Origin: Oasisia sp. SBJ-2009
Lineage: Eukaryota > Annelida > Polychaeta > Sabellida > Siboglinidae
Direction: 5' to 3'
NCBI GenBank assembly: GCA_964017155.1
Contig: OZ024864.1
Span: 30,769,334 to 30,833,333, forward strand
Length of the DNA: 64,000 nucleotides
Position 1 is the stretch's first letter. Every line of letters begins with the position of its first letter. This document shows positions 301-63,898 of the stretch, piece by piece. Below the pieces are notes generated by a model. The model was given only the letters and a program-made list of their open reading frames with translations, was not told the origin of the DNA and did not search any database. The position numbers were made by a program, and so were the translations under genes.

Positions 301-3300
301 AATGTTTGAGCTGAAGGCAGCGCTCCCCATCCACAAGGACCTATACATCCGCATCAAAGACTACGACCTGCTGGGCTCAGACGATGTCATTGGTGAGACC
401 GTGATTGACCTTGAGAATCGCTTCCTCTCGAAGCATCGCGCCACCGTTGGCCTGCCGAAGACCTACTGCACGTGGGTGTGACCTTTGTGTGACCTGTCAA
501 GAATATGTCTAGCCTATACAGGATTGGTTTGGAATGGAATTGATTGGATTGCACTGTAATTGCAACTTAGGCAGCATAAATGTACTCAAGAAAAGTATGA
601 TTATTATATTTGTTGTCAGAATTATGATATTCTGACAGTGGAGATGAGATTGATTTTGCCATGTTGAGTAGTTTAATGAAGTATGAACACCCAGAAACTG
701 TGAAGGGTTGTGACTGCAGTCTGCTGTTCTGTGAAATTGTGTCATGCTTTTTCCCATGTTTACTACTTTTGACTTTATTGCCAAAGAACTGTTTTAACTT
801 TATTATGATTATGTAAAACAAAGAGTCTCGTTCACAGATTTGTCTACGATTGCTTATATCCGATTTAGCTTTCTTCATAATTGTCCCATATAGGGAAACA
901 AAGCCATAATTCACTTGGTGTCTTTTTGCCAAATGTTGATAATGAAAAATAATTACCCAGGGGTATGTTTGTTGTCTAACAATTTAATAAAAACTAATAT
1001 ATTTTCATAAAACACATATGACCCTAGCTAGGTTTGATTGTTTGCAAACCTGATTTAAAGGACAAACAAAGTTAACTTTTACGTGGCATACACCTAATAG
1101 AGTTAATATAAAGTAACAATTTCCACATATACTAAATTTTTTAACCCCAGCGGTTTACCAGAAAAATATTTTTTAACACCCAGCCATCCAAATTCTATGC
1201 GCTACCCCATCTTAGACGAAGAATGACGTCACGACGGTGATCGAGGCGCTCTCCACGTAGATTCCCTGCATAGGGTTTGGCTGTTGTCATGAAATGGCTG
1301 CAACTCGGCAACGCGCGTAACATGCTGATGGCAGTAAATATAAAGTTGTCTATTATTGTTATCGCTGAAATCATCCTATCAACTGATGATACATCTACGT
1401 CTACATCAAAGCATTTCTCCTCAAAATGGACCGAGCAATGTGCCAAACAGTACGCCCGCAAATCACCAACGTGAATCCATTGCTTCAATACTACCGGTTG
1501 TTTCAACTATTATTGCAACCGTATGCCGAACACGAAGGCATAATTACTAAAGTTTACCATAGATTTAACCACAGATTTAGATATACGTCTATAAACAGCT
1601 GCTAGATGTCACGCCAACTGAACGAACTGTCGAAGACTCGAAGTTGTTGACCCTTAACAGCGTCGCTGGAAGCTGACCGAGATATAGAATGCCGCGCGCT
1701 GAATGGCCAAGCCAAATGAACCCTTCACCTATGGCGGCGTCTAGACCATCGTGGATTTCGTTAGAATTTTAGACTTGAAAGTCACATTCTGAGTAAACCG
1801 CTGACGTTAAAAAATTGAGTATATGTGGAAATTGTTACTTTATATAAACTCTATTAGGTGTATGACACGAAGCCGTAGTCTTTTTTTGTCCTTTAAGCTT
1901 AACTGAGCAGAAAAGTGTAGTGTAGGAAAGATGTTTAAATATGCAATATTATCAGCAATATACAGTGATGAGATGTCGACTACTGTGTGAGTTGTTGCTT
2001 TATAAATGCACTGACCGACAGATCGGGGCCAAACAAGTGGAGAGACAGTGAGAAGCCCAAGGACATCCTGCAACAGTTCTGTCTTCAGCATGGCCTTCCT
2101 GATCCAGAGTATCCAGGCAACCATGTCGTACAGATCGGCGCTAAAACTTACACTCTCACGGATTTTGGTGAGGACAAATAAAGTTTTGTTTTTATGAGGG
2201 ACACTGAGGTCAGACTACTTTTATCATGGACATTTTATAATAATATGTTAATTAGCATGGATGATTATAATTATGATAATTAAATGACAAAGCAAACAAT
2301 AAAACACAGACGTGCCAAGAAGCTAAACATACAGGTTGATATGATTACTACTATTTATCGTTATGGTTATAAGTAATGTTGTTATTATTATGCTAGGTTT
2401 TTTAAAATAAATATTAATGACACAAAAAGGTTCCACAGTGAATTTTATACATATATAAATTTGTTTACACATTTTAATGACACCACCTTAATGGAAGTTT
2501 CTTTGAACTTTATACATAAAATTATATAGTTTTTGTTTGTATAATGACTAGCGTAAATCCTGTATTACTAGCCGCACCCCTAATTAAAGCGGCAAATCTG
2601 CAAAACCCTTATTTAAAGCCGCAACTTGTGGAGTTTAACTGTGACATGATTTCATATTCTGATCATAGTATCTGATCATTTTATGTACATGGGATTTTAT
2701 TAACTGTGTTATATCATTTGTTTTGCACAAGTGGCAATTGTAATACAATGTGTTATTTACAAAACCGGCTTCATTTCTGCGGTAAGTTTTTCACGTTTAT
2801 GTTGACAATTCTGTGACCCAAATGTCAATTTGTTTCGGCAAATGACTGTATTTAAAGCCGCACCCCAACTTTTGCGTTTTCGTCCTCATTTCGGCTACAC
2901 ACTACTGTAATAGTAGCCGCGGCTAGTAATACAGGATTTACAGTACATTATATTATAACTGTCTGCCTCGTGCATGCAGAAACACGGAAGCCAACTCATT
3001 CCCACTTGGGAGCTGCTGACCAGAGGCTAGCCCTTTGTGTCCTCAACACCCTACCTGAGGAACAGGGGGTTCCACTTACCCCAGAGCATGTTGAGACACG
3101 TGCTCTCTACAACCCGCTCCAGCCAGGCATTGAACAGGTCAGATGTGGGATTGGGTAAAAATGGAATTGTGTCAGAAGTGGGATTTGGTAAATATGGAAT
3201 GGTGTCAGAAGTGGGATTGCGTAAATATGGAATGGTGTCAGAATTGGGATTGGGTAAATATGGAATGGTGTCAGAAGTGGGATTGGGTATATTTAGAATG

Positions 3301-63898: not shown

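Follow-up and report, generated by a model that had tools for sequence, protein, structure and literature searches.

Tandem arrays resembling mirage minisatellites at exon-intron junctions of a vestimentiferan annelid

The analyzed stretch of DNA, called the window in the following, comprises 64,000 nucleotides of contig OZ024864.1 from the vestimentiferan annelid Oasisia sp. SBJ-2009. It contains parts of a ferlin gene, a WDR1 gene, and a cyclin J gene (CCNJ), and the repeat finder listed 53 rows for it. The closest proteins were found in Lamellibrachia satsuma (WDR1, 89% identity) and in Ridgeia piscesae (CCNJ, 83%, with a joined query that lacked one segment); amphioxus as the source of the DNA is not supported by these proteins. 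The junctions of the ferlin gene were set by homology to dysferlin chains in the PDB, those of WDR1 were read with the Lamellibrachia satsuma protein, and those of CCNJ with the predicted Ridgeia piscesae cyclin J protein.

The ferlin gene is on the plus strand. Its exon at 3030..3137 (start approximate), which was aligned to dysferlin 9qls, has its donor at 3138, and a 33-bp array of 12.4 copies (3138..3546) begins with this first intron base. The donor GTCAG is repeated in the unit; a recognisable exon part was also looked for and was not found by the exon-similarity test (p = 0.117). The next ferlin array, 57 bp x 7.1 at 4154..4557, is an acceptor mirage. Its unit contains TAG/CTACATGCTTCAGATGGTTGTG (a slash marks the splice point), and the array takes in 22 bp of the exon at 4536..4679, the true acceptor of which lies directly before 4536 according to the dysferlin alignment and the exon prediction. 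The same arrangement is seen at 6084..6535, where an acceptor mirage of 50 bp x 9 has a unit that contains CCAG/GAGCACTTCTGGAG. In this case 14 bp of the exon at 6522..6620 (end approximate, dysferlin alignment) are included, and the true acceptor precedes 6522.

The longest array in WDR1, which is also on the plus strand, is a donor mirage of 101 bp x 34.5 at 50527..54013. The unit consists of 40 bp exon and 61 bp intron, and the true donor is at 50567, directly behind the exon 50386..50566 (tblastn with the Lamellibrachia protein). All 34 additional copies of the splice site, the decoys, have kept the GT. FHGPPFKF is encoded by the working copy and is also found in the Lamellibrachia protein, whereas the decoy consensus is FYGPPLNF, showing that the protein sequence was kept by the working copy and that the decoys have drifted. 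A query of two units against the whole genome yielded 18 matches, all of them inside the array itself.

Three further plus-strand arrays in this gene are less regular or unrelated to the exon. The array at 55927..56315, taken to be the one predicted for intron 8, is a degenerate acceptor mirage of 43 bp. It contains TTGCAGG(A)AGTTTGTGAT nine times, in agreement with the true acceptor plus exon start at 56646-56663. The respective exon, 56652..56793 with the acceptor TTTGCAG/GGAGTTTGTGAT, was placed by tblastn with the Lamellibrachia protein and by the copy match; the predicted likeness to the regular cases, in a less exact form, was thus confirmed. For the array taken as that of intron 13 (26 bp x 65.7, 62014..63720), which stops 10 bp short of the acceptor belonging to the exon at 63731, the same prediction is borderline, with weak exon similarity only (p = 0.09). 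The repeat finder also detected a 25-bp x 14.2 array at 49562..49917, 7 bp past the donor of the exon 49406-49554; comparison with this neighbouring WDR1 donor revealed no copy of the junction (p = 1.0). A 24-bp x 31.5 array (42044-42798, unit TGGGGTGGCACTTCAGACAGACTT) is located in the intron that precedes the WDR1 exon at 45526. The unit contains an acceptor-like TTCAG, and no known exon is near the array.

CCNJ is encoded on the minus strand, and its donor mirage, 33 bp x 6.7, is located at 25822..26041 with the unit TTGTACAGAACATGCTCAG/GTGGGTACATTTTG. The exon ends at 26023, in the array copy that adjoins the unique exon, i.e., the first 33-bp unit. In the Ridgeia cyclin J protein ...PLVQNML is joined to STHHTDEQ, which matches the next CCNJ exon near 22520, and this joint fits AG/C across the CCNJ intron. 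A second minus-strand array of the same unit, which was absent from the original prediction, was revealed by the repeat finder and the printed flanks at 23710..24641; it has about 28 copies and is more divergent. Between the two arrays lies an insert of 1,177 bp (24645..25821, no strand assigned) with the inverted ends CTAGGCTAGCGCTGT, of which 15 of 16 bases pair. A search of other assemblies for an open frame formed by the CCNJ array yielded just the frame of the window itself.

A mobile element appears to be present in the window as well. At 29859-31634 on the minus strand there are open frames resembling a non-LTR reverse transcriptase, with the motif FADD, which we take to be a mark of these enzymes. 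A 401-bp piece of this region is present in at least 40 genome copies with 97-100% identity, and the retroelement has thus probably been active recently.

Five arrays of the window repeat an exon-intron boundary together with exon sequence, as expected of mirage minisatellites. Originally, five regular arrays had been predicted to hold the true site in register. Four of them (57 bp, 50 bp, 101 bp, and the 33-bp array of CCNJ) indeed do so with exon sequence in the unit, while the 33-bp ferlin donor array repeats the donor without the exon. The register had been put forward as evidence against chance, but it adds nothing of its own, because any tandem duplication over a junction is in register by construction. 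As predicted, donors as well as acceptors are affected, and the genes are unrelated (ferlin, WDR1, CCNJ, and several myosins, see below). Seven of 22 window arrays were located at junctions, compared to 1.39 expected (0/1000 random draws), in a window that had been chosen for such arrays.

A search of the assembly (764 Mb, 33 contigs) with the myosin head family yielded 78 places, and 30 loci with this family and 20 stretches were merged into a sample of 219 kb. A small codon-based exon finder, which was checked on the window, and family matches gave 127 exons with 254 junctions, and 80 arrays with a repeat score of 80 or more made up the array set. The first training of the finder (2,778 codons) had included some pieces in the wrong orientation. 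Retraining with 2,756 codons, in which 15 of 53 myosin pieces were left out due to an inner stop, gave 124 exons; 52 of them coincide at least in part with a myosin match, and the others are predictions only. The counts were nearly identical. The edge densities, the shuffling within introns, and the exon-similarity, 18-mer, and motif tests rest on the first-training exons. For the random-placement counts two HMM exon ends (C10, C14), which the predictor had misplaced, were restored, as they also were for the 18-mer test, and the two-copy array C5:29104147, located inside a predicted exon start, was dropped, so that 79 arrays were counted.

Arrays were found to be overrepresented at myosin junctions. 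In total, 26 of the 79 arrays were located there, compared to 9.22 expected when these arrays were placed at random within the same stretches (0/2000 draws). The most strongly enriched class was that of arrays starting within 20 bp of the junction: 15 such near arrays (-2..+20 bp) were counted versus 2.82 expected (0/2000). The excess was smaller for arrays spanning the junction (11 versus 6.42), and 69 of 2000 draws reached 11. Restriction to arrays with at least 4 copies gave 20 of 45 at junctions (5.56 expected, 0/2000), 10 near (1.76, 0/2000), and 10 spanning (3.82, 1/2000). With the first-training exons the values were 26 versus 9.45 for all arrays, 15 versus 2.89 for near, and 11 versus 6.58 for spanning arrays (89/2000), and 19 of 45 versus 5.69 when 4 or more copies were required.

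The counts were also made with the 52 HMM-supported exons only. Again, the overall excess was evident (13/79 versus 4.42, 0/2000), and the same was true for near arrays (8 versus 1.17, 0/2000). The spanning class was not significantly enriched with these exons (5 versus 3.25, 373/2000). When 4 or more copies were required, 9 of 45 arrays were at junctions (2.85 expected, 1/2000) and 5 were near (0.78, 2/2000), and the spanning class was again not significant (4 versus 2.07, 184/2000). Shuffling each array inside its own intron led to the same picture: the excess was significant overall (25/80 versus 12.1, 0/5000), it was large for near arrays (15 versus 5.4), and it was not significant for spanning arrays (10 versus 6.7, P = 0.11).

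The density of array edges in the myosins was 1.18 and 0.87 per kb of available sequence in the two bins of the last 40 bp of the exon, it rose to 2.57 at -2..+20 bp, and it was flat in the bins from 21 to 800 bp (0.60, 0.33, 0.46, 0.54, and 0.28). In the window, which has few arrays, the densities in the same bins were 1.72, 1.92, 2.29, 1.79, 0.90, 0.68, 0.65, and 0.21, i.e., a gradual rather than a sharp fall from the junction. Taken together, the comparison of arrays with shuffled positions, which had been proposed as a check of the original prediction and was run on the window and the myosin sample, yielded an excess at junctions overall, but the spanning class is weak with homology-supported exons.

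The second proposed check, the fit of the unit to the exon edge, separated the two classes. All 13 spanning arrays tested have a unit to which their own exon gives the best fit among the junctions of the same type. Since extension into the exon was the criterion by which spanning arrays had been selected, the result tells what such arrays are, and not how frequent they are. In contrast, exon similarity at p <= 0.05 was found in none of 15 near arrays (including one at +24 and three from the window) in a gapped comparison, and 1 of 13 was below 0.05 in an ungapped comparison. The near class is therefore enriched in position, but mostly does not consist of exon copies. Near arrays are somewhat more diverged than spanning arrays (89 versus 93% identity, p = 0.07, with manually entered values). 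A donor-like motif was visible by eye in some near units (ferlin, C1:20054365, C10:9294050, and C4:22081292). Two near arrays are special cases: C2:41444583 is part of a complex that does copy an exon edge, and C13:37155463 is based on a doubtful predicted exon. Candidate explanations for the near class are old mirages with a drifted exon part, for which no exon similarity was found, duplications that began in the splice signal, and a barrier effect, which is discussed below.

Copies of exon edges were also searched for independently of the repeat finder. The 18 exon bases beside each junction were compared with the adjacent intron, and a copy was scored at p <= 0.01 relative to other introns. 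Such copies were found at 23 of 305 junctions, with about 3 expected by chance, and at 6 of 56 junctions in the window alone. For 18-mers located 9, 18, 36, 54, and 72 bp into the exon the numbers were 16/305, 8/305, 7/303, 3/291, and 2/263. Random intronic points had a copy on a given side in 142 of 700 cases, and in 19 of these there was none on the other side, so that the copy was terminal, like that of an exon edge. One-sided copies are thus commoner at random intronic points than at exon edges, and only the terminal comparison favours junctions (myosins alone, 17/249 versus 19/700, Fisher p = 0.006). The exon copy is shielded from mutation and an intronic copy is not; therefore, up to about twofold of the difference could by our estimate be due to detection. 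Over these measures (arrays with at least 4 copies, 18-mer copies) the junction excess is about 1.7- to 3.6-fold.

Motifs that resemble splice sites but are not close to exons served as controls. Among the real myosin junctions, 127 of each type, 6 acceptors and 9 donors had an array edge nearby. Away from exons the values were 0 of 158 for AGGTRA (Fisher p = 0.0006), 0 of 272 for TTKCAG, and 10 of 1287 for YYNCAG (0.0078, Fisher p = 0.002); the base rate per site is 0.0065. The idea that arrays are generally seeded by splice-like motifs is not supported for these three patterns. Intronic GTRAGT had an array edge nearby in 10 of 205 cases, which is rank 5 of 1553 patterns and not different from real donors (Fisher p = 0.47), and the donor-like hexamer alone may thus matter for arrays. 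However, GAGT-type repeat hexamers rank as high, and the GTRAGT count may be driven by few arrays.

Decoys and register were counted in 15 arrays listed by hand, with splice-site weights that were set by hand. GT or AG is kept in 322 of 368 decoys, and the score of 270 equals or exceeds that of the true site. Periods that are multiples of three are not in excess (7/15, p = 0.28), and nothing thus points to a coding use. The largest example is a donor array of 5.2 kb in a myosin gene (C2:36346347-36351500) with about 120 copies of 43 bp, in which the GT is intact in 103 of 119 decoys. A mirage array of 24 bp is located at C10:9301042-9301744; its period, a multiple of three, keeps the frame open, and the exon finder ran through about 27 of its decoys (C10:9300842). 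At the protein level, one exon copy is present in the annotated sequences of the relatives Lamellibrachia and Ridgeia.

It is probable that the arrays are mirage minisatellites from tandem duplication at junctions, which started or were retained there in excess. In the germ line, a segment covering the junction, with 7 to 40 bp of exon and some tens of bp of intron, would undergo tandem duplication. The copy that adjoins unique exon sequence would remain the working splice site and the extra copy would fall into the intron, where slippage or unequal exchange could amplify it to about 3 to 120 copies. Purifying selection would keep the exon part of the working copy, while the decoys would drift and be homogenised among themselves. 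At junctions, such duplications would arise or persist with two to three times the frequency of other intronic positions. We infer the steps of duplication and amplification, and likewise that the excess is due to more arrays being born at junctions and not to better survival or easier detection there. The spanning class is best explained by a local tandem duplication that was subsequently amplified. The exon share of the unit ranges from 0.24 to 0.80, which is compatible with a random position of the junction (KS p = 0.097, n = 15). Reverse splicing, the copying of spliced RNA, and other mechanisms that depend on the exact splice point would fix the register and are thus not favoured for this class. 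The duplication model gives no direct account of the strongest excess, that of arrays mostly without an exon copy (15 versus 2.82). The original claim that junctions are the birthplace of the repeats is supported by the crowding of arrays at the junctions of genes outside the window, but it was overstated, since the excess of spanning arrays is marginal when all arrays are counted and not significant with the HMM-supported exons. A junction-biased birth is likely, not proven.

Alternatively, duplications could be born everywhere at a high rate, with those covering a junction being neutral and the excess resulting from conserved exons that keep old copies recognisable. Tandem arrays make up about 17% of the DNA, and random placement alone therefore gives 6.4 spanning arrays among the 79 of the myosin sample. 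The small difference with HMM-supported exons (5 versus 3.25) and a position of the junction in the unit that is compatible with random are also in accordance with uniform birth. However, array edges exceed expectation fivefold at -2..+20 bp (15 versus 2.82), a count reached in 0/2000 draws, and the 10 spanning arrays with at least 4 copies (3.82 expected) were matched in 1/2000. In addition, none of the 11 near arrays tested among the 15 had exon similarity, and thus exon conservation cannot make them visible. Uniform birth is therefore regarded as less likely, although conserved exon anchors may explain part of the junction excess. The near arrays, with their sharpest myosin peak within 20 bp on the intron side and mostly no exon copy (0/15 at p <= 0.05), would be accommodated by a barrier: array edges would wander, or unique intron would be lost, until the splice signals stop the process, and arrays would pile up against exons. 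Such a barrier makes no exon copies by itself, but 13 arrays clearly have them, and the myosin density past 20 bp is flat and not graded, which makes this explanation rather improbable.

Decoys might also be selected, i.e., kept as extra splice sites for buffering or regulating splicing, and the many intact sites (322 of 368, with 270 at least as strong as the true site) would be expected in this case. Yet homogenisation accounts for intact sites without selection, the decoy exon parts drift in protein-changing ways, as seen in WDR1, and multiples of three are not in excess, so that selection of decoys is very unlikely. All arrays are known from the sequence of one assembly, and repeats could in principle have been inflated or invented by the assembler. 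This is extremely unlikely, however, in view of variants shared among copies, unique flanks, the occurrence of spanning arrays on seven contigs (C2, C5, C8, C10, C11, C13, and C14), and the presence of the CCNJ unit on both sides of the insert.

With tandem duplication at junctions as the preferred reading, a curiosity of lancelet genes is now found in a second phylum, together with an estimate of its frequency. A wider generalization can be offered tentatively and may well not hold: exon-intron junctions could be hot spots at which tandem duplications arise in the germ lines of animals. In minisatellite-rich genomes of two distant phyla, about 1 junction in 15 would then have recognisable copies of its own exon edge, further arrays would start directly at splice signals, and splicing would take place among hundreds of intact decoys. 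Two questions become testable, namely whether DNA breaks or slips at junctions, and by what means the spliceosome chooses among dozens of equally strong tandem copies, including acceptors downstream of many decoys. For annotation it is of importance that arrays with a period of three can leave long open frames, which gene finders mistake for exons.

Several known systems share features with these arrays. Introners are mobile elements that generate introns, and they also lead to splice sites that are repeated in introns. The WDR1 unit, the one that was searched, differs from them in that it is found only at its own locus and is not dispersed. The Rogers model, in which introns are gained by tandem duplication of AGGT (as cited in PMC3087553), has the tandem duplication over splice signals in common with our cases. 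In contrast to this model, as far as it is outlined there, the intron continues past the array to another exon in the five cases of the window.

The closest similarity is to the mirage minisatellites of amphioxus, as the original prediction had proposed. These have been described in Adh3, the globins BflGb6 and BflGb9, PGBD5, and troponin C (PMC3087553, PMC3902484), and the anatomy in the parts of these papers that were considered is the same: tandem copies of the exon-intron boundary that include some exon and affect donors as well as acceptors, many decoys in which AG or GT is intact, and units of 10 to about 160 bp. In the same parts (PMC3087553 / PMC3902484), the mechanism is called unclear in the 2010 paper and splicing is apparently undisturbed. 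The portion considered of a further paper, PMC9921365, includes the run of a repeat finder, and the word "minisatellite" is absent from it. In the literature searched, no report of mirage minisatellites outside cephalochordates was found. The annelid thus falls outside the reported host range, which is a matter of range and not of structure, and mirage-type arrays of the amphioxus kind are present in a second phylum. Apart from the host, two differences from the amphioxus reports, as far as considered, are apparent. The arrays described here have up to about 120 copies, compared to 3 and 6 units in amphioxus BflGb6, and their excess at junctions was tested against random placement.
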